Part shown: positions 13,018-31,683 of the stretch, one piece after another
Layout of the letters: each line of letters opens with the position of its first letter
Numbering within the stretch: position 1 is the first letter of the stretch
Origin: Pseudomonadota bacterium
GTDB taxonomy: Bacteria > Pseudomonadota > Alphaproteobacteria > Rhodobacterales > Rhodobacteraceae
NCBI GenBank assembly: GCA_020161615.1
Contig: JAIUPD010000002.1
Span: 186,001 to 250,000 of the forward strand
Direction of reading: 5' to 3'
DNA length: 64,000 nucleotides
Notes under the pieces: model-generated
Told to the model about the DNA's origin: nothing
The model's database searches: none
What the model saw: only the letters and a program-made list of their open reading frames with translations
Position numbers and translations under genes: made by a program

Positions 13018-14202
13018 ATGTTCGAACGTGTCGAGGGCTATCCCGTCGATCCGATCATGATCGGCGCCGAGTATTTCGCCCAGGACCCGCGGTCGGACAA
13101 GCTGAACCTGACGGTCGGGATCTATCAGGACGCCCAGAGCCGGACTCCGGTGCTGGAGGCGGTGAAGCGGGCCGAGGCGCGGCTGGTCGAGACGCAGGCG
13201 ACGAAATCCTACCTCGCCCTGACCGGCGACGCGGACTATGGCCGGCTTCTGGGGGCCGAGATCCTGGGCCCCGCGCACGGGCCGGGCTGGGTCACGGCGC
13301 AGACCTCGGGCGGAGCGGTGGCGCTGAGGGTCATGGCGGAATTGCTGGCGCAGATGCCGGAGCCGGCGACCATCTGGCTGCAGACCCCGACCTACGGCAA
13401 TTACGTCCCGATCCTGACCGCCGCCCGGGCCCGCTTTGCTTCGGTGCCCTATTACGATCCGCTCCGGCGCGAGATCACCTTTGAGCGGATGCTCGACGGG
13501 CTGAAATCCGCCAAGCCCGGCGATGTCTTCCTGTTCCAGGGCGTGTGCCACAACCCGACCGGCGCCGACATGAGCCCGGACCAGCTGGCAGCGCTGCTGG
13601 ATGTGCTGGACGAGCGCGGGATCGTGCCTTGGCTAGACCTCGCCTATCTGGGTTTCGCCGAAGGGTTCGAAGCCGATTGCGCCGTCGCCCGGCAGATCGC
13701 CGAGCGGTTCGAGGAATGCGTGGTCTGCGTCACGCTGTCGAAATCCTTCGGCATCTACCGTGACCGGGCCGGGGCGCTGTTCGTCAAGACCCGGGCGGCC
13801 GATCGCGAGCGGATGCACCGCGCCGTTTCGGCCATCGTCCGGGCGGGCTCGTCCCATGCGCCAGACCATGGCGCCTCGGTCGTGCGGGTGATCCTGGGCG
13901 ATCCGGCGCTGAAGGCGCTGTGGCTGGGGGAGCTGGACGCGATGCGCGCCCGGGTCGCCGGGGTCCGCGCCCGGATCGTGGCGGTCGAGCGCGATCTCTT
14001 CGGCAGCGGGACGCTGGATTACCTCGGCGGTCAGCGCGGCATGTTCTCCTTGCTGCCGCTGACCGAGGCGCAGGAACTGGCCCTGACCCGTGTCCACGGC
14101 ATCCATGTGGTGAAGGGCGGGCGGGTCAATGTGGCGCGGCTGGGCGAGGGGGATATTCCCTGGCTGATCCGCGCGGTGCGGGAGGTGACCCGCGCCCCCT
14201 GA
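13018..14202 (+). CDS. aromatic/aspartate aminotransferase (class I, TyrB type)
   Basis: Fold-type I PLP enzyme of 394 residues. K242 in TLSKSFG forms the Schiff base. HNPTG (178-182) with N179, D207 and Y210 are the expected cofactor contacts. Length and the GIYRDRAGALF stretch fit the TyrB/AspC Ib group that transaminates aromatic amino acids and aspartate with 2-oxoglutarate. It directly follows the alcohol dehydrogenase gene and ends in a strong terminator, suggesting a two-gene unit. Confidence 0.92.
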   Translation: MFERVEGYPVDPIMIGAEYFAQDPRSDKLNLTVGIYQDAQSRTPVLEAVKRAEARLVETQATKSYLALTGDADYGRLLGAEILGPAHGPGWVTAQTSGGAVALRVMAELLAQMPEPATIWLQTPTYGNYVPILTAARARFASVPYYDPLRREITFERMLDGLKSAKPGDVFLFQGVCHNPTGADMSPDQLAALLDVLDERGIVPWLDLAYLGFAEGFEADCAVARQIAERFEECVVCVTLSKSFGIYRDRAGALFVKTRAADRERMHRAVSAIVRAGSSHAPDHGASVVRVILGDPALKALWLGELDAMRARVAGVRARIVAVERDLFGSGTLDYLGGQRGMFSLLPLTEAQELALTRVHGIHVVKGGRVNVARLGEGDIPWLIRAVREVTRAP

Positions 14203-14208
14203 TCGACG

Positions 14209-14239
14209 CCCCGCCCGGATCGCCTCCGGGCGGGGTTTT
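14209..14239 (+). terminator. rho-independent terminator after the aminotransferase gene
   Basis: Perfect 11-bp stem CCCCGCCCGGA/TCCGGGCGGGG with a 5-nt loop, then TTTT. It begins 6 bp after the stop codon. Confidence 0.9.
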
Positions 14240-14247
14240 CGCTTGCC

Positions 14248-15234
14248 TCAGCCCAGCTTGAACAGCTTCTGCGCATTGGTGCGGCCGATCTTGCGGCGGT
14301 CGGCTTCGGCGATGCTGGCGGCGTTGAACCAGTCGCTCGCGTGATCCACATTCTCGAACGGCCAGTCGGTCGAGAACAGGATCCGGTCCGCGCCCAGTTC
14401 CAGGATCGCGTCGATCAGCGTCTGGGTGCGGAAATTGCCCGAGGTGGTGATGTGGAAGTTCTCGGTGAAATACTCCGCGAACTTGCGCTTGGCCGGGTAT
14501 TTCGGCGGGGTCTTGACCCAGGCGTTGCGATGGTCGAGCCGCCAGAGCATGTAGGGGATGCCCTCGCCCATATGGCCCAGCACGATCTGCAGCGAGGGGT
14601 GGTCGTCGAACAGCCCCGAGGCCATCAGCCGCAGCGCATGGACGGCGGTTTCCTGCGCGAAGGCCCAGGTCGGTCCCAGCAGCCAGGGGTGGCCGTCATA
14701 GATCCGCGCGTCGCGGGGCAGCGGGTTGCGGGGGTGCAGGTAGAAGGGCACGTCCAGCTTGGCGACCTCGGCCCAGAACGGGCGGTATTGCGGCAGGTCG
14801 TAATAGAGGAGTTCCTCGCCGCCGCCCTGTTCGGCGTCCTGCGAGAAGCCGTTGATCAGCGCGCCGACGAAGCCGAGGTCGGTGACACAGCGGTTCAACT
14901 CCGCCGCGGCGGCGTCGGGGTCCTGAAGCGGCAGGGCGGCGAAGGCGCGGAAGCGGTCGGGCCGCTTGGCGCATTCCTCGGCCAGCACGTCATTGGCGCG
15001 CCGCGCGATCTCGATGGCGCGCTTGCGGTCGGTGATCGCCTGCACCGCCGGGGCGTTCAGCGACAGGATCATCGTCTCGATCCCGTGCTTGTCCATTTCC
15101 TTCAGGCGGGTGTCCTGGATGTCGAGCAGCCGGTGTTCCAGCTCCTTCCAATACGAGGGCGGCACGAAGCCCGCCGAATCCATCAGGGTTTCGGGGATGG
15201 CGAAATGCTCTTCGAGCGCGATCTTGCCTTGCAT
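14248..15234 (-). CDS. graF: gamma-resorcylate (2,6-dihydroxybenzoate) decarboxylase
   Basis: Amidohydrolase-superfamily decarboxylase of 328 residues, converting gamma-resorcylate to resorcinol plus CO2. From memory the sequence is very close throughout to the Rhizobium enzyme (GraF, about 327 residues), including the MQGK-ALEEHFAIPETL start. Metal ligands are visible: E8, H10, H167 and D290, with H221 near the active site. It lies downstream of an MhpA-like hydroxylase and a TRAP transporter on the same strand. 2,3-Dihydroxybenzoate or salicylate decarboxylase are alternatives within the family but less likely given this similarity. Confidence 0.92.
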   Translation of the reverse strand: MQGKIALEEHFAIPETLMDSAGFVPPSYWKELEHRLLDIQDTRLKEMDKHGIETMILSLNAPAVQAITDRKRAIEIARRANDVLAEECAKRPDRFRAFAALPLQDPDAAAAELNRCVTDLGFVGALINGFSQDAEQGGGEELLYYDLPQYRPFWAEVAKLDVPFYLHPRNPLPRDARIYDGHPWLLGPTWAFAQETAVHALRLMASGLFDDHPSLQIVLGHMGEGIPYMLWRLDHRNAWVKTPPKYPAKRKFAEYFTENFHITTSGNFRTQTLIDAILELGADRILFSTDWPFENVDHASDWFNAASIAEADRRKIGRTNAQKLFKLG

Positions 15235-15262
15235 GGTCTCTCTCCGGTCTCGGTCTTTGGGG

Positions 15263-16804
15263 TCAGGCGGTGGGTTGCAGCGCGCCGAGGGCGGCGAGCA
15301 ATTGGGTCAGCAGGGCGGGCAGATCCCCGGCCGTGGCGGCCAGGCCATAGACATGGCTGTCCGGCCGGACGATGGCCGCCTGCGCGCCGGTCGCGTCGAA
15401 CCAGCGCTTGTAGACGCCGTTGGTGTCCGAAATGGGCGCGCCGCCGACCATCTGGCCAATGGCGAAATGCAGGCAGCGGCCGCCGAGCGCGGCGAAAGCC
15501 TTGCGCTCGGCCTCGCCCAGCGCAGCCAGCGCGGCCTCGTTCCGCGCCACGATCAGCCAGCCGGTGCCGGCGATCTCATCGAAAAGCGCGGTGCGCTCGG
15601 CGGTGGAGACCAAGCCCTGCGGCAGCAGCGCGCCATGATTGGCGATGAGCCCGCCGGTCAGCGCCGGATAGACCAGCTTGTCGGGCTTCTGGTTGGCCTT
15701 GCGCGCGGCGATCATCCTGGCGTCGCGGGCGCGGGCCTGTTCGGGGTCGCGCATGGTCTGGGCGCGGCCCAGCTCGATGGCGCGGCCGGTGATGAAGCGC
15801 ACATGCGGTTCGCGTTCGGGCTGGTAGCTGTCCAGGAGCGACTCGGGCGCGCCGTCCAGCACCATGCCCAGCTTCCACGCCAGATTGCGCGCGTCGCGGA
15901 TGCCCGAGACCATGCCCTGCGCCAGGAACGGCGGCATCTCATGCGCGGCGTCGCCCGCCAGCAGCACCCGGCCCTTGCGCCACTGACCCACGATGCGCGA
16001 GCGGAAGGTGTAATTGGCGACGCGGATCAGATCGGCATCTTCGGGGCTGAGGAAGGCCGCGACCCGGCGCCAGACGCCCTCGGCCGCGGTGACGGAATCG
16101 CGGGTGTCGTCCGCTTCCAGCCGGAACGAGAAGCGGTGGTGATGCGGGCCGATATTGACGATGGAGACGGGCTGCTCCGGGCGGCACACCTGCCGGAACG
16201 AGGGCAGGGTCGGCACCTCGCGCTTCATCGCGAAATCGCAGACCAGCCAGTTTTCGTGGAAGCCGAGGTCTTCCAGCGGGCCGCCCAGATGGCCGCGCAC
16301 GAAGCCGTTGCCGCCGTCGCAGCCGATGACATAGCGCGCCTTGACCTCGACCGGGGCGCCGCCCTCGGTTTCATGGCCGGTGACGGTCACGCTGCCGTCG
16401 CTCTCGGCCAGGCCGGTGACGGTGACGCCGTGGCGCAGCTCGACCCCCGGCGTGCGGCGGACCAGCGCGTCCAGCGTGTCCTCCAGATGCGGCTGGTACA
16501 TCATGTATTGCGCGGGCCAGCCGCAGGGTCCGGGATTGTCGTATTCGATGTCGAGCAGCACCTCGTCCTGCCCGTTCACCCAGACATAGCCCGCCTGGAT
16601 GTTGGTCCCGGGCAGCACGGTCTCGGCGATGCCGAGCTTCTGAAAGGTGCGCATCGTCTCGTCGTCGAAGGCGGCGGCGCGCGGCAGGTTGTAGAGGCCG
16701 GCGTAGCGCTCCAGCACCACGACCTTGCGCCCGGCCTGCCCCAGCAGCGCCGCCAGCACCATCCCCGTGGGGCCATAGCCCACGATGGCTACATCGAATG
16801 TCAT
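15263..16804 (-). CDS. MhpA-like FAD-dependent aromatic hydroxylase
   Basis: Class A flavoprotein monooxygenase of 513 residues. The start at 16804 (MTFDVAIVG) is preferred because GGAGGAGG precedes it. FAD motifs are clear: GYGPTG near 9-14, the DG motif (VIGCDGGNGFVR, about 155-166) and the GD motif (RVLLAGDAAHEMPPFLAQG, about 280). Family members use NAD(P)H to ortho-hydroxylate phenols such as 3-(3-hydroxyphenyl)propionate. Its position directly before graF suggests it hydroxylates resorcinol to hydroxyquinol. This is inference; the characterised Rhizobium resorcinol hydroxylase is a two-component enzyme. Confidence 0.82.
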   Translation of the reverse strand: MTFDVAIVGYGPTGMVLAALLGQAGRKVVVLERYAGLYNLPRAAAFDDETMRTFQKLGIAETVLPGTNIQAGYVWVNGQDEVLLDIEYDNPGPCGWPAQYMMYQPHLEDTLDALVRRTPGVELRHGVTVTGLAESDGSVTVTGHETEGGAPVEVKARYVIGCDGGNGFVRGHLGGPLEDLGFHENWLVCDFAMKREVPTLPSFRQVCRPEQPVSIVNIGPHHHRFSFRLEADDTRDSVTAAEGVWRRVAAFLSPEDADLIRVANYTFRSRIVGQWRKGRVLLAGDAAHEMPPFLAQGMVSGIRDARNLAWKLGMVLDGAPESLLDSYQPEREPHVRFITGRAIELGRAQTMRDPEQARARDARMIAARKANQKPDKLVYPALTGGLIANHGALLPQGLVSTAERTALFDEIAGTGWLIVARNEAALAALGEAERKAFAALGGRCLHFAIGQMVGGAPISDTNGVYKRWFDATGAQAAIVRPDSHVYGLAATAGDLPALLTQLLAALGALQPTA

Positions 16805-23475: not shown

Positions 23476-25032
23476 TCAATTCGCCAGCGTCAGCGTCTCC
23501 CGCAGCAAGACGCTTTCGAAATCGCTGACCAGCACCCGGACGCTCACCACCCAATCGCCGCCGAAGGGCAGGACCGCCGCCTCGGTGCGCCAGATCCCGT
23601 CCGCCCCGGCCCGGGCGGACAGGCGCAGGGGCTCCAGCCGTCCATCGGCGGGGGCCAGGGCCAGCGCCACCTCCCGCGGCTCAAGCGGCGCGAAATCGCC
23701 GGTCTGAAAGGCCAGTTCCAGAACAACCGGCCCCGCGGTGCCCGGGCTCAGACGAAGATCGGCCATCACCCGGTCGGTGTGCAGATGCGCCAGGACCGGC
23801 GGGACCGCCTCGATCATGGTCCGGGGGGGCGGCGTCAGGCGGAAAAGCGCGGCGATCAGCAGGACACCCAGACCCAGCAGGATCTCGGCGCGGACCGACC
23901 GCGCCAGCGGCCGCACGCGGCCCCGGGCCAGGGCGGGCGTCAGCCGGAGTCGATTCAGCCCGGCCAGCGCCAGCAGCCCCATCACCAGGGCCAGTTTCAC
24001 CAGCAGCAGCTGGCCCCAGCCGGTTTCGGTCAAACGCGACGGCACGCCGCCGCTTTGCGCCCAGGTCAGCCAGGCGCCGCTCAGCACCAGCAGCGCGACC
24101 AGACCCAGCGCGGGCGTCGAGAATCGGCGCAGCCGCAGCCCGGCCTCGGGATGGCGCAGATCCGCCAGAAGGGTCGGCAGCAGGCCCATCCACCAGACCA
24201 ACGCCAGGCCGTGAACCGCGACGGCGACGGTGGAAAGCGCGGCGGGCGGGGCGGTGACGGCATGGCCGGACCCCGCGAAGGAGAGCCCGGCGCAAAGCCA
24301 GGCGAGAAGGGCGAGGCCACGCGGCGGATGCGGTTGCCGCAATGCCAGCGCCGCCAGCAGCAGCGCCAGAACGCTCAGCGCGATGGTCCGGGCCAGCGGC
24401 GCCAGCAGCGCCGCACGGAACGGCGCGCCGCTTAGCCCTTCGCCCGGGGCAAGGCCCAGAAGGTCGAGGCCATGGCTCCACAGGAAGACCCCGGCGAGGC
24501 CCAGACCGGCGAGCGCGGCGCCCAGCCCCAGGCGCCGCCGCCCCAAGGGCGCGGCGGTCCGGGCAATGAAGGCCGCATGCAGGGCGAGGCCGATGGCGCC
24601 CAGCATCGCCAGCGTCAGGCCAAAGCGCGCGGCGGCGGCAAGCCGGGCACCGGCGGCCGCAGGCGGGGCCGCGCTGTGCAGCGACGGGGCGCCCAGATGC
24701 AGCGTCAGCACCCCGCCGACCGGGTGACCGTCGCCGGACATGACCCGCCAGGACAACAGATAACTGCCCCGGGCCGAGCCTTGGGGGGCCGGGATCGCGA
24801 GGCCGGTGTCGCGCGCTTCGCCCTGCACCTCCTCGGCGCTGCCGTCCGGGGCGACCCAGCGCAGCATCAGCGGCGCCACGGCCTCGCTGAAGGTCAGGGT
24901 GACCGACGGCGGGAAGGCCTCGACGATGCTGCCGTCGCCGGGCGTCGCGGTCACCAGCTGGGCATGACCGAAGGCGGCCAGAGGCGACAGGATCAGGAGC
25001 AGGGACAGGCACAGGGTGCGAAAACGGGGCAT
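23476..25032 (-). CDS. CopC-CopD fusion copper protein (YcnJ-like)
   Basis: Protein of 518 residues. After a signal peptide, the mature end starts with H23 (GHAQLVTATPGDG), the N-terminal Cu(II) ligand of CopC; DGHPVGG near 100 supplies further ligand candidates. Residues about 130-400 contain eight or so helices of the CopD family, and a soluble C-terminal domain (about 410-518) follows. YcnJ/CopCD proteins bind periplasmic copper and import it. It is last of a four-gene minus-strand copper cluster. Confidence 0.88.
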   Translation of the reverse strand: MPRFRTLCLSLLLILSPLAAFGHAQLVTATPGDGSIVEAFPPSVTLTFSEAVAPLMLRWVAPDGSAEEVQGEARDTGLAIPAPQGSARGSYLLSWRVMSGDGHPVGGVLTLHLGAPSLHSAAPPAAAGARLAAAARFGLTLAMLGAIGLALHAAFIARTAAPLGRRRLGLGAALAGLGLAGVFLWSHGLDLLGLAPGEGLSGAPFRAALLAPLARTIALSVLALLLAALALRQPHPPRGLALLAWLCAGLSFAGSGHAVTAPPAALSTVAVAVHGLALVWWMGLLPTLLADLRHPEAGLRLRRFSTPALGLVALLVLSGAWLTWAQSGGVPSRLTETGWGQLLLVKLALVMGLLALAGLNRLRLTPALARGRVRPLARSVRAEILLGLGVLLIAALFRLTPPPRTMIEAVPPVLAHLHTDRVMADLRLSPGTAGPVVLELAFQTGDFAPLEPREVALALAPADGRLEPLRLSARAGADGIWRTEAAVLPFGGDWVVSVRVLVSDFESVLLRETLTLAN

Positions 25033-25105
25033 CAGGCCTCTCTCGGGGTCAGGTCGGGCATCGGGACCGCGCCGGGCGCGCAGCCGTCGCGGGCGGATCC
25101 GGTTG

Positions 25106-25561
25106 TCAATGGCCAGCCGGGGGGTGGTGCCCCTCGCCGGGGCCGATCAGGACCACGCCCTCGAACGCGTCGAGGCGGGCGATGAGTGCGGCGCCCAGGC
25201 CGCTTTCCGCCCCGCGCGCGGCCTCGGTCAGGCTCTGGGCGGCCGAGCCGTCGATACCGTGATGCGCCAGAAAATGCGGATCGAGCACCTCCTCCCCGGC
25301 GCAGAGAACGATGGCCCAGCCCTCGGCCCCCCGCCGCAGCAGCGCGCGGCCCGCCATGTCGCCCTGCCGCCATCCGGCAATCGCGGTGTCGCCGCGGATG
25401 GTGATGGGCTCGACAGTCAGGGGGGCCTCGGGACGGTCGAACTGGGCCATCATCAGATGGGTGATCGCGCCGGTTTCGGCGCTGGATATCGGGCCATCGG
25501 CCAGAACGGGCGTGGCAAGGCTCAGCGCGGCGACCAACGCGATGCGGGGCATGAAGGGCAT
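25106..25561 (-). CDS. copper uptake system-associated small secreted protein
   Basis: Secreted protein of 151 residues: signal peptide to about LADG, then a compact domain with DRPEAPLTVEPITIRGDTAIAGW, GRALLRR and WAIVLCAGE. This pattern fits proteins annotated as copper uptake system-associated, whose molecular role is unknown. A C-terminal GHHPPAGH tail could bind metal. The start at 25561 is chosen because GGAGG lies 6 bp upstream. It sits between the CopC-CopD and YcnI-type genes. Confidence 0.7.
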   Translation of the reverse strand: MPFMPRIALVAALSLATPVLADGPISSAETGAITHLMMAQFDRPEAPLTVEPITIRGDTAIAGWRQGDMAGRALLRRGAEGWAIVLCAGEEVLDPHFLAHHGIDGSAAQSLTEAARGAESGLGAALIARLDAFEGVVLIGPGEGHHPPAGH

Positions 25562-25622
25562 GGGCTTCCTCCGAGGGACAAGGGAAGGCGCCACCGCCGA
25601 AAGGGGCGGTGGCGCGGAAGGA

Positions 25623-26150
25623 TCAGTGGCCGTGGCCGGCCGAGGGCGCGACGACCATCACGCCCGGCGCGGGGCCTTCCAGGTCATGGGCATCCTGCCC
25701 CTCGGCCGGGATCTCGATCCAGCGCTCGGCCCCATTCGCGCATTCCTGCACCACGGGGATGTAAAGCATCTGGTCCAACGGCACGGTGTCGGTGACGCGG
25801 GCGCGGAACACGAATTCGTCGTAATGGGCGTTGGGCAACTCGCCCGACCAGACGATCTCGCGCACGCCCTCGGTCAGGGTCCGGCCGTAATATTCGTAGG
25901 GCTGGGCATAGGCGCCCGTCACCGTTTCGAGCTGCCATCCGGCATGGACCATGGGTTGGGCCGCGATCAGTCCTTCAGGGATCTGCACGCGGACACGCAG
26001 GGTCGCCTCGCCCTCGCAGCCATGGCCGACGCGGATGGTCAGGCGGGCGGTTTCGCCCTGGACGACCTGCGTTTCGGCAAAGGTCGCATGGGCCGAGGCC
26101 TGGGTCGCGAGCGACAGACTCAGGGCGGCGGCGGTCATCAGGAGTTTCAT
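25623..26150 (-). CDS. YcnI/DUF1775 copper-binding protein
   Basis: DUF1775 (YcnI-like) periplasmic protein of 175 residues. Signal cleavage after ASA leaves H20 at the mature N-terminus (HATFAETQV), as in the Bacillus YcnI domain, where this His is a copper ligand. The VRVQIPEGLIAAQPMVHAGWQLE and DEFVFRARVTDTV segments are family signatures. The C-terminus ends in GHGH. YcnI proteins act as periplasmic copper chaperones beside CopC-CopD proteins, as here. No membrane anchor is seen. Confidence 0.85.
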   Translation of the reverse strand: MKLLMTAAALSLSLATQASAHATFAETQVVQGETARLTIRVGHGCEGEATLRVRVQIPEGLIAAQPMVHAGWQLETVTGAYAQPYEYYGRTLTEGVREIVWSGELPNAHYDEFVFRARVTDTVPLDQMLYIPVVQECANGAERWIEIPAEGQDAHDLEGPAPGVMVVAPSAGHGH

Positions 26151-26402: not shown

Positions 26403-26756
26403 TCAGGCGGAGGGTGGCCCGCGCGAGGGGGGCGGCGCGGCCTCGGTCGAGGCCAGAAGATGGCGCGCCGCGACCGGGGGCTGCACACGGAAGGTCAGCT
26501 CGGCCGGGGCGGCGGCGCCCTCGATTGCCGCTGCCAGATAGAGCCCGGCGACCAGATGGCAGACCGGGCACGAGGCATCGGCGCGGGGCGCGCCTTCATC
26601 GTCAGTGACGCAGAATTCGGCGCCATAAAGCTGGGCGAATTGCGCCCGCTCCAGGTCGCTGGCCGATGCGAAGCGATGCCCGAACCCCGCCATGGCCAGC
26701 GCCATCGCGAAGACAAGAACCAGCCCGCGGGCCAGAAGGGGGACGCGCCGCATCAT
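26403..26756 (-). CDS. DUF2946-type small membrane/secreted protein
   Basis: Protein of 117 residues with an N-terminal hydrophobic signal or anchor (LARGLVLVFAMALAMAGFGH), a CPVC pair (63-66) in an ASCPVCHL context, and a Pro/Ala-rich tail. This layout matches DUF2946, often found beside copper-transport genes. The start at 26756 is chosen; a start seven codons upstream is possible. It heads the copper cluster and is divergent from the cobalamin riboswitch. Confidence 0.7.
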   Translation of the reverse strand: MMRRVPLLARGLVLVFAMALAMAGFGHRFASASDLERAQFAQLYGAEFCVTDDEGAPRADASCPVCHLVAGLYLAAAIEGAAAPAELTFRVQPPVAARHLLASTEAAPPPSRGPPSA

Positions 26757-26889
26757 GCGCCTTCTTACCGCGCCCATCGGGTCGCGCAAGCCGTGATCTG
26801 CCGCCTGCGCCGTCCCGCCGCATCGGGCGATGCCCGGCGGCGCCGGGCCATCGAGGGCTTGCCAAGCCCATTCCCGACCGCTACGCATC

Positions 26890-27068
26890 GCCTGTCGGTT
26901 CCCGCAAGGGATCAAAAGGGAATTCGCCGCCGGTCCGCCGGCGAACCGAAACTGCCCCCGCAACTGTAGGCGGTGAGCGCGCAGCAACGAGCCACTGTGA
27001 TCCGGTCCGCCGGGACATGGGAAGGCGCTGCAAGCCACGATCCGCCAGTCAGGAGACCTGCCGACATC
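26890..27068 (+). promoter_or_regulatory. cobalamin (adenosylcobalamin-type) riboswitch
   Basis: All conserved blocks are present in order: AACTGCCCCCGCAACTGTA (26949-26967), GCCACTG (26991-26997), GGGAAGGCG (27019-27027) and the B12 box AGTCAGGAGACCTGCC (27047-27062). The 5' limit is approximate. It lies about 200 nt upstream of an ABC substrate-binding protein start on the same strand, so corrinoid excess should repress this operon. Confidence 0.95.
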
Positions 27069-27162
27069 GTCAGCAACGCGGCCCGGGCGGGGTGTCCGGG
27101 GAGATGTCTCATGGTGTTTTCCCCCGCGCACGCGAGCCGGCGTGCCATTGCCAGCCCCGAAC

Positions 27163-27255
27163 CCTCTGCCCCCGGGGCAGAGGCGGGGGTCAGCCACGGG
27201 ACGGGCCAGGTGCTCTGCCCCTTCGATCGCCCTCCGGCCCTTTTCCCAACCGGAG
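27163..27255 (+). promoter_or_regulatory. expression-platform hairpins with Shine-Dalgarno sequestration
   Basis: CCTCTGCCCC/GGGGCAGAGG (27163-27183) is a 10-bp snap-back stem. CTCCGG (27232-27237) pairs with CCGGAG (27250-27255), which contains the GGAG ribosome-binding site 7 nt before the ATG at 27263. No U-tract follows, so translational rather than transcriptional control by the riboswitch is suggested. Confidence 0.6.
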
Positions 27256-27262
27256 ACATTCC

Positions 27263-28294
27263 ATGCCGATCCTTCCCCTGATCCATCGCCGCACCTTGCG
27301 CGTGGCGCTCATGGCGGCCCCCCTTGTCGCGACGCTGCCCGCGCTGGCTCAGACGGCCTATCCGCTGCATCTGTCGAATTGCGGCGTCGACCTGACTTTC
27401 GAGGCGGCGCCGCAGAGCGTGGTGAGCGTGGGCCAGGCCGCCACCGAAATCCTCTATGCCCTGGATCTGGGCGACCGGGTGCTCGGCACCTCGGTCTGGT
27501 TCTCGTCCGTGCTGCCGCAGTTCGAGGCGGTGAACGCCAGCGTGCCGCGCCTTGCCGACAACGATCCCAGCTTTGAGAGCGTGGTCTCGCTGCGCCCGGG
27601 GCTGGTGGCGGTGCAATACGAATGGCACATCGGCCCGCAAGGCATCGTCGCCACCCGTGAGCAATTCGCCGATCTCGGCATCCCGACCTATACGCTGCCC
27701 TCGGATTGCGTCGGCAAGGACAATTCCACCGGATCCGACGGAACGCGGCTGGATCTGTACAGCATGGACAGCCTCTATCAGGGCATCGAGGAACTGGCGC
27801 AGATCTTCGACGTGCCCGAGCGTGGCACGGCGATGGTCGCCGCCCTGCGCGAGCGCGAGGCGGCGGCCATCGCCGCGGCCGAGGCGCTGGCGCTCGAGGA
27901 TGCCTCGGCGGTTTTCTGGTTCTCCTCGGCCGAGATGGATATCGACCCCTATGTCGCGGGCCAGGGTGGCGCGCCGGCCTACATGATGCAGGCGCTCGGC
28001 CTGCGCAATGTGGTGGAAAGCAACGAGGAATGGCCCGTGGTCGCCTGGGAGACCATCGCCCGCGCCAACCCTTCGGTCATCGTGCTGGCCCGCATGGATC
28101 GCCGCCGGTTCGAGGCCGACGACATCGAGCGCAAGCTGGAGTTCCTGCGCACCGATCCGGTGGCGAGCCAAATGGAGGCGGTGCGCGAGGGCCGGATCGT
28201 GATCCTTGACGCGCATGGCATGGACCCGTCGATCCGCAACATCGACGCGCTGGAAACCCTCTCTGCCGCGCTGGCCGGGTTCGATCTGCAATGA
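27263..28294 (+). CDS. FecB/BtuF-type ABC substrate-binding protein
   Basis: Class III periplasmic binding protein of 343 residues. The signal peptide ends after LAQT (about 30). The SVVSVGQAATEILYALDLGDRVLGT and PNPSVIVLARMDRR-like segments are typical of iron-chelate or cobalamin binders; an NDPSFESVVSLRPGLVAV block lies between. The riboswitch upstream argues for a corrinoid, cobalt or functionally linked ligand, but the protein is not close enough to classical BtuF to be sure. Its stop overlaps the permease start (ATGA). Confidence 0.85.
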   Translation: MPILPLIHRRTLRVALMAAPLVATLPALAQTAYPLHLSNCGVDLTFEAAPQSVVSVGQAATEILYALDLGDRVLGTSVWFSSVLPQFEAVNASVPRLADNDPSFESVVSLRPGLVAVQYEWHIGPQGIVATREQFADLGIPTYTLPSDCVGKDNSTGSDGTRLDLYSMDSLYQGIEELAQIFDVPERGTAMVAALREREAAAIAAAEALALEDASAVFWFSSAEMDIDPYVAGQGGAPAYMMQALGLRNVVESNEEWPVVAWETIARANPSVIVLARMDRRRFEADDIERKLEFLRTDPVASQMEAVREGRIVILDAHGMDPSIRNIDALETLSAALAGFDLQ

Positions 28295-29331
28295 CCCGCC
28301 GGGCCGCCCTTTCGGCGCTGGCTGTCCCCGTGCTGGCACACGCGGGGCTGGGGGCGGTCCTTCTGGCGCTGGCGGTCCTCGTCGGTGTCACCATCGGCGA
28401 GGTGGCGCTGCCGCTGGGGCTGGTCGGCGACCTGCTGGCGGTGAAGCTGCTGGGGGCCGAGCGCGCGCTCGATCCCATCGACGCGGGCATCCTGTGGAGC
28501 TATCGCCTGCCCCGCACGCTGGTCGCCGCCGCCTGCGGCGCGGGGCTGGCGCTGTCGGGCGTGGTGCTGCAGGCCCTGGTCCGCAACGCGCTGGCCGATC
28601 CCTATCTTCTGGGCGTCTCGGCCGGGGCGGGGGCGGGGGCGGTTGCCGTCACGCTGCTGGGCCTCGGCGGCGGCGCCATCGGACTTTCGGCCGGGGCCTT
28701 CGGCGGCGCGGCTTCGGCCTTCCTGATCGTGGCGCTGCTGGCAAAGGCGGCGGGCGGCGGACCCGCCCAACTGGTGCTGGCGGGCATCGCCGGATCGCAG
28801 CTGTTCAACGCGCTGACCTCGTTCTTCATCGCCAAATCGGCCAATGCCGAACAGGCGCGGGGTCTGATGTTCTGGCTGCTGGGCAACCTGTCGGGCGTGC
28901 GATGGCCCGATGTCTCGCTGGCGCTGCCGGTGGTGGGTCTGGGTTTCCTCGTCTGCCTGGCCCATGTCCGCCCGCTCGATGCCTTTTCCTTCGGCTCGGG
29001 CGCCGCAGCTTCGCTGGGCATCGCCGTGCGCCGGGTGCAACTGGTGCTGATCGCGGCTGTCACGCTGATGACCGCGACGCTGGTCAGCCTGGTCGGATCC
29101 ATCGGCTTCGTGGGACTGGTGATCCCGCATGCCATGCGCTTTCTCGTCGGCCCGCGGCACGCCCGGCTCATCCCGGCCTCGGCGCTGGCCGGCGCGGTGT
29201 TCCTGATCGCCGCCGATATCGCCTCGCGCGTGCTGATCCCGGGTCAGGTCGTGCCGATCGGCGTGGTCACCGCCCTGGTCGGTGCCCCCGGCTTCGCCCT
29301 GATCCTGATCCGCAACCGGAGGCGATCATGA
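28291..29331 (+). CDS. FecCD/BtuC-type ABC permease
   Basis: Permease of 346 residues with about ten hydrophobic helices. Key segments are SYRLPRTLVAAACGAGLALSG, ALADPYLLGVSAGAGAGAV and VGSIGFVGLVIPHAMRFLVG, the last being the ATPase-coupling loop. A single permease gene implies a homodimer, as in BtuCD and FhuB-less systems. It overlaps both neighbours by four bases. Confidence 0.92.
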   Translation: MTRRAALSALAVPVLAHAGLGAVLLALAVLVGVTIGEVALPLGLVGDLLAVKLLGAERALDPIDAGILWSYRLPRTLVAAACGAGLALSGVVLQALVRNALADPYLLGVSAGAGAGAVAVTLLGLGGGAIGLSAGAFGGAASAFLIVALLAKAAGGGPAQLVLAGIAGSQLFNALTSFFIAKSANAEQARGLMFWLLGNLSGVRWPDVSLALPVVGLGFLVCLAHVRPLDAFSFGSGAAASLGIAVRRVQLVLIAAVTLMTATLVSLVGSIGFVGLVIPHAMRFLVGPRHARLIPASALAGAVFLIAADIASRVLIPGQVVPIGVVTALVGAPGFALILIRNRRRS

Positions 29332-30089
29332 GGATCGAGGCGCAGAACCTCGGCTGGCGCGAGATCGTGCAGGGCGTGTCGTGCGAGATCCGCCCGGGCG
29401 AGACTTTCGGGCTGGTCGGGCCGAACGGTTCGGGCAAATCGACGCTGCTGCGGCTTTTGGCCGGGCTGATGCCGCGGGCGGCGGGCGAGGTCAGGCTCGA
29501 TGGCGTGCCGCTGGCGCAGTTGAGCCGCCGCCAGATCGCCCAGCGCGTCGCCCTGGTCGAGCAATTCGCCGACACGGGCGAGGCGCTCAGCGTCCGCGAC
29601 GCGGTGGAGCTGGGCCGCACGCCCTGGCTGTCGCCGCTGTCGCCCTTCGGCCCCGAGGATACGCAGATCGTTGAACGGGCGCTGGCCGCCGTGGGCATGG
29701 AGGAGATGGCGGCGCGCGCCTGGGCCACGCTGTCGGGCGGCGAACGGCAGCGGGTGCATATCGCCCGGGCCCTGGCGCAAGAGCCGCGGGTGCTGATCCT
29801 CGACGAGCCGACCAATCACCTCGACATCCACCACCAGCTGGCGCTGCTGGGGCTGGTGGCAGGACTGCCGGTGACAGTGGTGATGGCACTCCACGACCTC
29901 AATCAGGCGATGATGTGCGACCGGCTGGGCGTCATGTCCGAGGGGCGGATGGTCGCCTGCGGCCCGCCCGCCGAGGTGCTGACGACCGACACGCTGGCCC
30001 GCATCTTCCGCGTCCGCGCGCAACCGATGATCGACCCGAGCGACGGCTCGACCCTGTTTCGCTTTCTGCCGATGGAGCCCTCCCCATGA
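29328..30089 (+). CDS. ABC transporter ATP-binding protein (BtuD/FepC type)
   Basis: ATPase of 253 residues: Walker A GPNGSGKST (31-39), signature LSGGERQR (about 139), Walker B VLILDEPTNHLD (about 160) and switch His in MALHDLNQAM (about 194). The start at 29328 is set by the ATGA overlap with the permease. The stop overlaps the pseudoazurin start in the same way. Confidence 0.93.
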   Translation: MRIEAQNLGWREIVQGVSCEIRPGETFGLVGPNGSGKSTLLRLLAGLMPRAAGEVRLDGVPLAQLSRRQIAQRVALVEQFADTGEALSVRDAVELGRTPWLSPLSPFGPEDTQIVERALAAVGMEEMAARAWATLSGGERQRVHIARALAQEPRVLILDEPTNHLDIHHQLALLGLVAGLPVTVVMALHDLNQAMMCDRLGVMSEGRMVACGPPAEVLTTDTLARIFRVRAQPMIDPSDGSTLFRFLPMEPSP

Positions 30090-30502
30090 TCCGTCTTGCC
30101 CTGCTGCTCAGCGCCCTCGCCGCGCCGGTTCTGGCCGAAACCCATGAGGTGCGGATGTACTCCCGCTCGGATTCCGGTCCGATGCTCTATGAACCCTCGT
30201 TCCTGCGCATCGAACCGGGCGACAGCGTGCGCTTCCTGCCCACCCAGCCCGGCCACAACGCGGCCACCATCGACGGCATGCTGCCCGAAGGCGCCGAGCC
30301 CTTCCGCAGCCGGATCAACGAGGATGTCACCGTGACCCTGACGGTACCCGGTCTTTACGGCATCAAATGCAGCCCGCATTTCGCGATGGGCATGGTCATG
30401 GTGATCGAGGTCGGCGAGGGCGCGGCGCGCGACCTGCCGGAGGACCTGCCGCCCCGCGCCCGCCAGCGGTTCGAGGCGATCCTGGAAGCGGCGGCGCCGT
30501 GA
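30086..30502 (+). CDS. pseudoazurin (blue copper protein)
   Basis: Type I copper protein of 138 residues with a signal peptide cleaved after LAE (about 18). The four copper ligands are present with pseudoazurin spacing: H57 (PGHN), then C95, H98 and M103 in KCSPHFAMGM. Pseudoazurin normally carries electrons to periplasmic nitrite or nitrous oxide reductases. Here it is the fourth gene of a riboswitch-led ABC importer, joined by an ATGA overlap, and no denitrification gene is in view, which is unusual. Confidence 0.92.
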   Translation: MIRLALLLSALAAPVLAETHEVRMYSRSDSGPMLYEPSFLRIEPGDSVRFLPTQPGHNAATIDGMLPEGAEPFRSRINEDVTVTLTVPGLYGIKCSPHFAMGMVMVIEVGEGAARDLPEDLPPRARQRFEAILEAAAP

Positions 30503-31263
30503 GAACGAACCACGATCTGATCGAGGATATCCGCGCCTATTGGTCGGAACGCTCGCGCAGTTTCGACGCGGATTTCGGCCATGGCATCGCCCCGGGGGCC
30601 GAGGCCCTCGCCTGGGCCGCCCCGATGCGCGCCCATCTGCCCCCGGCCCCGGCCGAGGTGCTGGAACTGGCCTGCGGCACGGGTGAGGTCACGCGGCTGG
30701 TGCATGACCTCGGCCATCATGTGACGGCGCTGGATTTCTCGGAGGCCATGCTGGGCGTCGCCCGGGCGAAGCACGCGGGCAAGCCGCGGCTCAGGTTCCT
30801 GATGGCCGATGCCGGGCGGACGATGGAGCCCGACGCGCGCTATGACGCGATCCTCTGCCGTCATCTGGTCTGGACCCTGAGCGAGCCCGAGGCGGCCTTT
30901 GCCGATTGGTTCAGGATCCTGACACCGGGCGGGCGGCTGCTGATCTATGACGGCAACTGGGCCCGGCCCGCGCCCGGCGGGCGCTGGGCGGCGGCGGCTC
31001 TCAGGGTGTGGGAGCGGGTCGCCGGGGGCTCGTCGCTCGATCCGCAGATGACGGCGGCGCATCAGGACATCATGCGCCGCCTGCCCTTCGGCGCGGGGCT
31101 GACCTATGACCGGCTCGCCCCGATGCTGGAGGCCGCAGGCTTTCGCGAGCTCCAGCGCCTCTCGCACGCCCCCATCGCCCGCGCCCAGCGGCAGGGCTGC
31201 GGGCTGAGGAACAACCTGAAGACCCGCGTCTACGACCGGTTCATCCTGGTGGCGCGGAAATAG
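30499..31263 (+). CDS. class I SAM-dependent methyltransferase
   Basis: Methyltransferase of 254 residues beginning with GTG that overlaps the pseudoazurin stop (GTGA). Motif I VLELACGTGEVT (54-65), motif II ALDFSEAM and motif III DAILCRHLVWTLSEPEAAF are the methyltransferase-11/25 pattern. A C-terminal region of about 60 residues is not diagnostic. The substrate is unknown; a small molecule linked to the imported ligand is a reasonable guess. The gene ends 1 bp from the convergent thioesterase. Confidence 0.85.
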   Translation: MRTNHDLIEDIRAYWSERSRSFDADFGHGIAPGAEALAWAAPMRAHLPPAPAEVLELACGTGEVTRLVHDLGHHVTALDFSEAMLGVARAKHAGKPRLRFLMADAGRTMEPDARYDAILCRHLVWTLSEPEAAFADWFRILTPGGRLLIYDGNWARPAPGGRWAAAALRVWERVAGGSSLDPQMTAAHQDIMRRLPFGAGLTYDRLAPMLEAAGFRELQRLSHAPIARAQRQGCGLRNNLKTRVYDRFILVARK

Positions 31264-31683
31264 TCACGCCCTGACGGGTTCCGGCGTGGCGGTGTTGAAC
31301 GTACCGCGGCCGAGCGCGTAGACACTGCCCTCGGCGTCGCGGATCGTGACATCGGCCACCCCCAGCGTGCGGCCGATGCGCCGGGCCTCGGCCTCGGCGT
31401 AAAGGTCGCAGCGGGCGGGGGATTTCAGGTAATCGACCCGCAGGTTCGCGGTGGGCGTGGGCTGACCCTTGACCACCGAACAGGCCATAGTCCCGGCCAC
31501 GTCGATCAGGCTGGCGATGATCCCGCCGTGATAGGTGCCCGCCCTGGCGAAGAGCGTATAGGCCTCGCGATAGGGCAGTTTCAGGGTCAGGCGGCCGTCA
31601 GGCTCGACGCTCACCACCTCCATTTCCAGGAATTTGTGAAACTCGGCCCGGGCCAGCAGCGCCCGCAATTGATCGGCGTTCAT
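31264..31683 (-). CDS. PaaI-family hotdog thioesterase
   Basis: Hotdog-fold protein of 139 residues. The core GTYHGGIIASLIDVAGTMA (about 49-67) carries the usual helix with H and D of PaaI/YdiI-type acyl-CoA thioesterases. The start at 31683 (MNADQLRAL) is 17 bp after dctM and gives the family length. As the last gene of the catabolic operon it may recycle CoA from dead-end acyl-CoAs. Confidence 0.85.
   Translation of the reverse strand: MNADQLRALLARAEFHKFLEMEVVSVEPDGRLTLKLPYREAYTLFARAGTYHGGIIASLIDVAGTMACSVVKGQPTPTANLRVDYLKSPARCDLYAEAEARRIGRTLGVADVTIRDAEGSVYALGRGTFNTATPEPVRA

Follow-up and report, generated by a model that had tools for sequence, protein, structure and literature searches.

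What does a blue copper protein do in an importer operon headed by a vitamin B12 riboswitch? The question is raised by a locus in a 64,000-nucleotide (nt) stretch of a Rhodobacteraceae genome (NCBI GenBank assembly GCA_020161615.1, contig JAIUPD010000002.1, positions 186,001 to 250,000 of the forward strand; the whole stretch is called the window below). Here a cobalamin (B12) riboswitch precedes genes for the substrate-binding protein (SBP), FecCD-family permease and ATPase of an ATP-binding cassette (ABC) importer, a pseudoazurin and a class I S-adenosylmethionine (SAM)-dependent methyltransferase. On balance, we favour the view that this is a CbtJKL-type cobalt-import operon with the pseudoazurin as a dedicated periplasmic helper, a view of cargo and roles that draws on sequence comparisons.

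Cobalt limits B12 production, and the way in which bacteria acquire scarce cobalt, often bound as Co(III), is poorly understood. If the view holds, a copper redox protein in a cobalt importer would connect the supplies of copper, cobalt and B12, and pseudoazurin would gain a role outside denitrification in Alpha-, Beta- and Gammaproteobacteria; if the protein also acts as a reductase, B12 shortage would turn on a route of cobalt scavenging by reduction. A preliminary description of the locus had held pseudoazurin under corrinoid control to be undescribed, and the literature searched for pseudoazurin together with B12, as far as its text was accessible, yielded no report of pseudoazurin under B12 control. 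Likewise, no report of a blue copper protein with a riboswitch, siderophore import or cobalt uptake was found in the accessible text of a mostly open literature. While the riboswitch-CbtJKL part is already known, both the clade of operon pseudoazurins and its distribution are new as far as could be seen.

A cobalamin riboswitch heads a five-gene operon

The aptamer scores 97.4 bits against RF00174 (gathering score 31.5) and matches the model over positions 1-189 of 189. It is the sole Rfam match at the gathering threshold within the window and one of five RF00174 matches in the source genome. The genes for the SBP, the permease, the ATPase, the pseudoazurin and the methyltransferase follow 3' of it in this order, all on the + strand (Table 1), and all four junctions between them are 4-nt overlaps (ATGA, ATGA, ATGA and GTGA). 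The preliminary description had recognized a B12 riboswitch heading an ABC importer operon whose last two genes, joined by ATGA and GTGA, encode a blue copper protein and a SAM methyltransferase, and each of these elements was recovered: the pseudoazurin exceeds the TIGR02375 cut-off (125.9 vs 109.85 bits) and the methyltransferase that of Methyltransf_11 (72.4 vs 21.2 bits). Its coordinates also stand apart from a trivial shift, the riboswitch beginning at 26880 and not at 26890. A scan of 26700-31400, weakly informative in DNA of 69% GC, gave no sigma-70-like promoter. Pararhodobacter aggregans is a close relative, its SBP being 95% identical.

The pseudoazurin contains the complete H-C-H-M set of copper ligands (H57, C95, H98 and M103), its residues 19-133 of 138 align to 1adw (phmmer E 5.6e-36), and its N-terminus is signal-peptide-like, as judged by eye.

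The importer resembles the cobalt importer CbtJKL

CbtJKL was reportedly described by Cheng et al. in 2011 as the cobalt ABC importer of Sinorhizobium meliloti. On pSymB of S. meliloti 1021, the region at 64.5-72.5 kb (L244) encodes homologues of all three importer subunits (SBP 54%, permease 65% and ATPase 53% identity), and near 66.3 kb it matches the cobalamin riboswitch model with 84.5 bits. We assign this region to cbtJKL because of the position of the gap between SMb20055 and SMb20056, the riboswitch of smb20056 and the identity of cbtJ, which we take to be SMb20056. The gap is placed at 66313-66506 on pSymB in the accessible part of PMC2780559, and a B12 riboswitch is listed 5' of smb20056 in that of PMC2245857. 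According to the available passages of PMC7689651, the pSymB CbtJKL imports Co(II), is controlled by an adenosylcobalamin riboswitch and was initially taken for a cobalamin transporter; excerpts of PMC12239276, PMC4207669 and PMC11236759 agree on cobalt as its cargo. In our SBP tree, S. meliloti CbtJ groups on the riboswitch-type side (SH-aLRT 87). Paralogues were found at 16 loci including one in the source genome (SBP identity 37-49%), and none of these loci showed a riboswitch or a pseudoazurin match.

The likeness to the S. meliloti system thus comprises three homologous subunits, a riboswitch upstream and a methyltransferase gene (60% identity) directly downstream; unlike the window, the S. 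meliloti site has no pseudoazurin match. With BtuFCD the importer shares the FecCD importer superfamily and B12-riboswitch control, but its permease misses the two BtuC equivalog cut-offs (219.8 of 461 and 207.5 of 334 bits), its ATPase misses that of BtuD (132.7 of 281 bits), and in our samples it is confined to genomes with the cobaltochelatase CobN. All its NCBIfam matches (EitA, F420-0, BtuC, BtuD) are sub-threshold. The nearest named models, those of EitABC and a putative F420-0 importer (NF052484, NF052485, TIGR03868/69/73), are all matched below cut-off, EitA and EitC with 280.7 of 640 and 288.6 of 485 bits. In sequence, the closest likeness is to the cobalt importer CbtJKL, and B12 importers are less similar.

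Cobalt or a cobalt chelate is the probable cargo

The distribution of the importer also bears on its cargo. When 398 genomes were sampled evenly across the phylum, 16, the source genome included, proved to encode a CbtJ-type SBP (profile E below 1e-130). CobN was matched at E 1e-100 in 16/16 of these vs 94/382 of the others (Fisher p 5e-10, without kinship correction), and the 288 genomes of the sample without a CobN match at this threshold contain no CbtJ-type SBP. Closer relatives are represented by 80 loci, those ranking highest in SBP similarity among 552 candidates. For 50 hand-chosen genomes of these 80 (32 with and 18 without an operon pseudoazurin), CobN, nosZ, nirK and pseudoazurins were counted, and CobN was above cut-off in all 50. 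The SBP gene lies about 5 kb from cobN in G198 and G526, cob genes are present within the fetched stretch of 10 of the 80 loci (in L105 solely through a 33% CobW-type match), and in L101 and L103 a cobF match starts 32 nt after the end of the pseudoazurin match. The BtuB and BtuF of the source genome gave no match at E 1e-20 in 80 + 39 + 12 loci (16 of them paralogue loci).

Because of the similarity to CbtJKL, the sub-cut-off BtuC and BtuD scores and the occurrence restricted to CobN genomes, cobalt or a cobalt chelate is likelier than a corrinoid, and we regard it as the probable cargo. Of the preliminary proposal that an imported corrinoid or metal chelate is reduced in the periplasm, the second half is retained as a possibility, for a cobalt chelate; corrinoid import as first choice is set back by the CbtJKL similarity and the CobN co-occurrence.

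Several observations weigh against cobalt as the cargo. Kinship contributes to the co-occurrence with CobN, which would also suit the import of a corrinoid precursor, and of 10 genomes of the phylum sample in which the riboswitch-less paralogue stands alone, 6 have CobN as well. The source genome already has CbtAB-like and btuBFCD-like genes (identified by eye) under riboswitches. Finally, the fold leaves the cargo unfixed: for the predicted SBP model, the nearest folds are two whose titles give no ligand, a protein of the Fe3+-hydroxamate type and heme binders, BtuF appearing only at rank 31. The presence of BtuF in this fold family, the riboswitch and the permease's matches to BtuC models below their cut-offs could indicate that a corrinoid (B12, cobinamide or another cobamide) is carried and that the pseudoazurin alters the oxidation state of its cobalt in the periplasm. 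We consider this unlikely, since the best characterised relative of the importer takes in cobalt, the CobN-less genomes have no CbtJ-type SBP though non-producers most need corrinoid uptake, BtuB and BtuF are unmatched at the loci searched, and the btuBFCD-like operon of the source genome is a separate, riboswitch-led one.

In two plasmid loci, from Comamonas (L247) and Diaphorobacter (L255), an OprD-family porin gene lies directly 3' of the pseudoazurin gene, as would be expected for a small chelate more than for a corrinoid. Siderophore-receptor genes flank the operon on both sides in the Diaphorobacter locus. A conserved TonB receptor beside the operon was also considered, and none is among the 40 commonest neighbour clusters listed, as delimited by a rough gene caller.

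Operon pseudoazurins form a clade of their own

We collected 59 operon pseudoazurins, 53 from the 80 loci and the others from the window, L068, L074, L075, the second operon of L152 and L164. In 52 of them the protein has at least 110 residues and all four ligand residues; the copy of L086 is cut by a contig end. A tree was built from 55 operon copies (four shorter than 100 residues were excluded) and 30 other pseudoazurins, solely from the family of the source organism, its 149 columns being few for 85 rows. A single branch (support 98/97, 97% of 200 bootstrap trees) separates all 55 operon copies from the 30 others, among which is the second pseudoazurin of the source genome. This second copy lies on contig C6 (L066) together with a nirK-like gene and norCB-like genes, as judged by eye, directly upstream of another riboswitch-led, btuBFCD-like operon.

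Operon copies share the family, the four copper ligands and the signal-peptide-like N-terminus with denitrifier pseudoazurins (TIGR02375; 1adw, 1bqk). They differ in forming a separate clade, in not being tied to nosZ or nirK, and in changes next to the ligand H57 such as D54 to Q, K55 to P and E60 to A, in a region which we take to be the partner-docking face. A difference in charge was considered and set aside as small (mean -5.0 vs -6.1, Mann-Whitney p 0.025). Distances between operon pseudoazurins track those between the SBPs of the same operons (49 operons, r 0.78, 0/999 permutations). In L152 (Chachezhania sediminis), a second riboswitch leads a unit at 13358-15975 on the - strand made of SBP, pseudoazurin and methyltransferase genes, with no permease or ATPase match, and this unit points to the SBP as the partner of the pseudoazurin. 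From these comparisons we lean towards a pseudoazurin that serves this uptake.

The pseudoazurin is a widespread accessory of the importer

A riboswitch lies at most 600 nt upstream of the SBP gene in 79 of the 80 loci, L105 being the exception. A pseudoazurin gene or its remnant follows the ATPase gene in 53 of the 80 and is intact in 46; a methyltransferase gene is present in 19 (29-92% identity), in 18 of them together with a pseudoazurin. Eight of the 80 are Pseudomonas loci with an operon pseudoazurin (L136, L140-L143, L149, L156 and L157). In a family sample of 149 genomes from as many genera, a CbtJ-type SBP (here E below 1e-120) occurs in nine, of which four have the pseudoazurin (the source genome, G026, G038 and G088); among those without it, the locus of G114 is at a contig end, the stretch of G051 is mostly N, and G091 has the methyltransferase alone.

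Plasmid records matching the pseudoazurin number 333, and the riboswitch-cbtJKL-pseudoazurin arrangement was found in 11 of 12 plasmid loci chosen among the 50 listed of these 333. They include Comamonas and Diaphorobacter (Betaproteobacteria), Roseomonas, Paracoccus denitrificans HAMBI_2443 and P. pantotrophus, and plasmid pRCB133 of Rhodobacter capsulatus SB 1003 carries the riboswitch and all five genes; the Martelella plasmid locus (L251) is without the arrangement. The association that the preliminary description supposed thus recurs in relatives, in the search from the SBP as in the reverse search from the pseudoazurin, and it spans Alpha-, Beta- and Gammaproteobacteria. On the SBP tree, where remnants were scored as present, 56 of 99 scored riboswitch-type rows have the pseudoazurin, a distribution that takes no fewer than 15 changes vs 38.8 when shuffled. 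The simplest history, though not a proven one, is a single capture with subsequent losses and transfers. The pseudoazurin is an accessory of the importer, often absent and sometimes decaying.

Extra SBP copies occur inside or beside the operon in L124, L125, L089, L129, L219 and L109. The contig of L131, labelled as a metagenome-assembled genome of Mesoflavibacter (Bacteroidota), bears the proteobacterial operon and is probably mis-binned or mislabelled.

A possible mechanism and its alternatives

In the scheme that we propose, low cobalamin would let the riboswitch permit expression of the operon. The SBP would bind cobalt, probably as a small chelate, and the permease and ATPase would import it for CobN-dependent cobalamin synthesis in a B12-producing bacterium. 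The pseudoazurin would act as a dedicated periplasmic accessory of the importer, its reduced form donating an electron to a Co(III) chelate, which is inert, and so releasing labile Co(II) for CbtJ. The methyltransferase would have a small molecule as its cytoplasmic substrate, and this might be the chelator that enters with the cobalt. We know of no such cobalt reductase. Pseudoazurin potentials lie near +0.27 V and that of Co(III)EDTA is about +0.37 V; Co(III) complexes are also classical in vitro oxidants of blue copper proteins, so reduction of a Co(III) chelate is chemically possible. Although we find it the likeliest mechanism, a reductive one is only a tentative proposal, and slightly more doubtful still is the complete scheme, in which the blue copper protein would be a Co(III)-chelate reductase for CbtJ, the methyltransferase would disarm or recycle the chelator, and both would be induced by B12 shortage.

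Other findings count against the proposed helper role. The pseudoazurin is dispensable, as the S. meliloti importer works without one at its site; it was not found in 27 of the 80 loci (two of these, L098 and L151, stop short of the position to be scored). Besides the source genome, the phylum sample has 15 CbtJ-type genomes; none of them gave a pseudoazurin match, and 13 have a riboswitch on the right strand (all but G526 and G380). The copies of L091, L096, L129, L130, L133 and L159 are partial, frame-disrupted or, as aligned, missing a ligand residue. The correlation between SBP and pseudoazurin distances would be expected under any joint inheritance.

Retention of the copper ligands in most operon copies would also suit a copper buffer, with redox activity incidental, that takes away copper which by the Irving-Williams order would displace cobalt from the chelator or from CbtJ. 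Genes of copper-handling families (CopC-CopD and DUF1775) do lie divergently upstream in the window, but this cluster is present near the importer in just 1 of the 80 loci and in 0 of 39 others, so a conserved copper-uptake neighbourhood was rejected and we give the buffer little probability.

Patchy presence, with its many changes on the SBP tree, and the six damaged-looking copies are what one might see if the pseudoazurin were a passenger, captured once beside cbtL and co-transcribed with no role in cobalt or B12 supply. This too appears improbable, given a single clade with intact ligands across Rhodobacterales, Rhizobiales and Pseudomonas, an identical gene order in Roseomonas and Comamonadaceae (both outside the pseudoazurin tree), and the re-packaging of pseudoazurin with SBP and methyltransferase in L152.

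Denitrification offers a last alternative. The 32 genomes with an operon pseudoazurin (damaged copies of L096 and L133 included) and the 18 without (among them L130, which has a remnant, and L152, which has the second-operon copy) do not differ in nosZ above cut-off (11/32 vs 6/18, p 1.0), and nirK shows no link either (11/32 vs 4/18). Neither gene is present in 16 of the 32, and in 14 of those 16 the operon copy is the sole pseudoazurin above cut-off, as its coordinates confirmed in all 14. From this lack of a link with nosZ or nirK, we infer that the operon pseudoazurin is probably not a denitrification carrier, and a role in sparing B12 through NosZ and N2O was rejected for want of co-occurrence with nosZ. 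It is very unlikely that B12-starved cells make the protein for respiration, for instance as a donor to NosZ in the removal of N2O, which reportedly inactivates B12, even though N2O is reported to affect B12-riboswitch genes in P. denitrificans (accessible parts of PMC8390676, PMC5987163 and PMC12848317) and a plasmid of this species carries the operon (L246). Also against such a role, the denitrification pseudoazurin Pden_4222 of strain PD1222 is clustered with nos genes, according to excerpts of PMC9409073.

The methyltransferase

The predicted methyltransferase model resembles generic small-molecule methyltransferases in a fold search. Methylation of the imported ligand, as suggested in the preliminary description, is possible. 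At this place in the operon the methyltransferase gene may predate that of the pseudoazurin, because S. meliloti and G450, one of the 15 other CbtJ-type phylum-sample genomes, have it without a pseudoazurin. Distant homologues in L070 (43%) and L072 (34%), though not that in L071, each stand beside another FecCD-type importer, which suggests that the enzyme may act on chelators in general. No riboswitch hit lies beside these two importers; the hit at 4720-4766 of L070 is a guanidine-II riboswitch.

Leader sequence and flanking genes

Table 1. Positions in the window of the operon, its leader elements and the divergent copper-handling genes
Feature	Position	Strand	Match or remark
Cobalamin (B12) riboswitch aptamer	26880..27079	+	RF00174, 97.4 bits
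SBP, CbtJ-type	27263..28294	+	Peripla_BP_2, 127.9 bits
FecCD-family permease, CbtK-type	28291..29331	+	FecCD, 272 bits
ABC ATPase, CbtL-type	29328..30089	+	ABC_tran, 128.6 bits
Pseudoazurin	30086..30502	+	TIGR02375, 125.9 bits, above cut-off
Class I SAM-dependent methyltransferase, GTG start	30499..31263	+	Methyltransf_11
Hairpin just 3' of aptamer	27083..27099	+	6 pairs, near-invariant in 35 aligned loci
Possible 56-residue leader open reading frame overlapping SBP start	27111..27281	+	ATG position in relatives
CopC-CopD fusion and DUF1775 gene, copper-handling families	23476-26150	-	divergent from riboswitch operon

The DUF1775 gene of the divergent pair is presumably of the YcnI type.

Between aptamer and SBP gene, the 3' side of the hairpin runs into a Shine-Dalgarno-like GGGGAGG; no compensatory change, and thus no covariation support, was seen among the 35 aligned loci. 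Loci without a clear B12 box or ATG were excluded from the following counts of pairing, T-runs and leader open reading frames (ORFs). The last aptamer strand has a perfect downstream match of at least 6 bases in 38 of 73 riboswitches, the mean longest match being 5.3 vs 4.4 in single-base shuffles. An intrinsic terminator was rejected, T-runs following 12/73 riboswitches vs 183/1600 random windows; the window has a single T-run match. Leader folding was no better than that of shuffled sequences. The ATG of the candidate leader ORF lies at an offset of 47-55 after the B12 box in 34 loci chosen for a visible ATG, and the ORF spans 36-56 codons in 29 of them; several Leisingera, Ruegeria and Pseudomonas loci have no such ATG. 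The hairpin, the Shine-Dalgarno-like motif, the ATG at a fixed distance and the pairing of the aptamer strand together fit translational control, which is likelier than control by a terminator and would perhaps operate through the predicted ORF overlapping the SBP start. In L098, L101 and L114, the leader reads in frame with the SBP.

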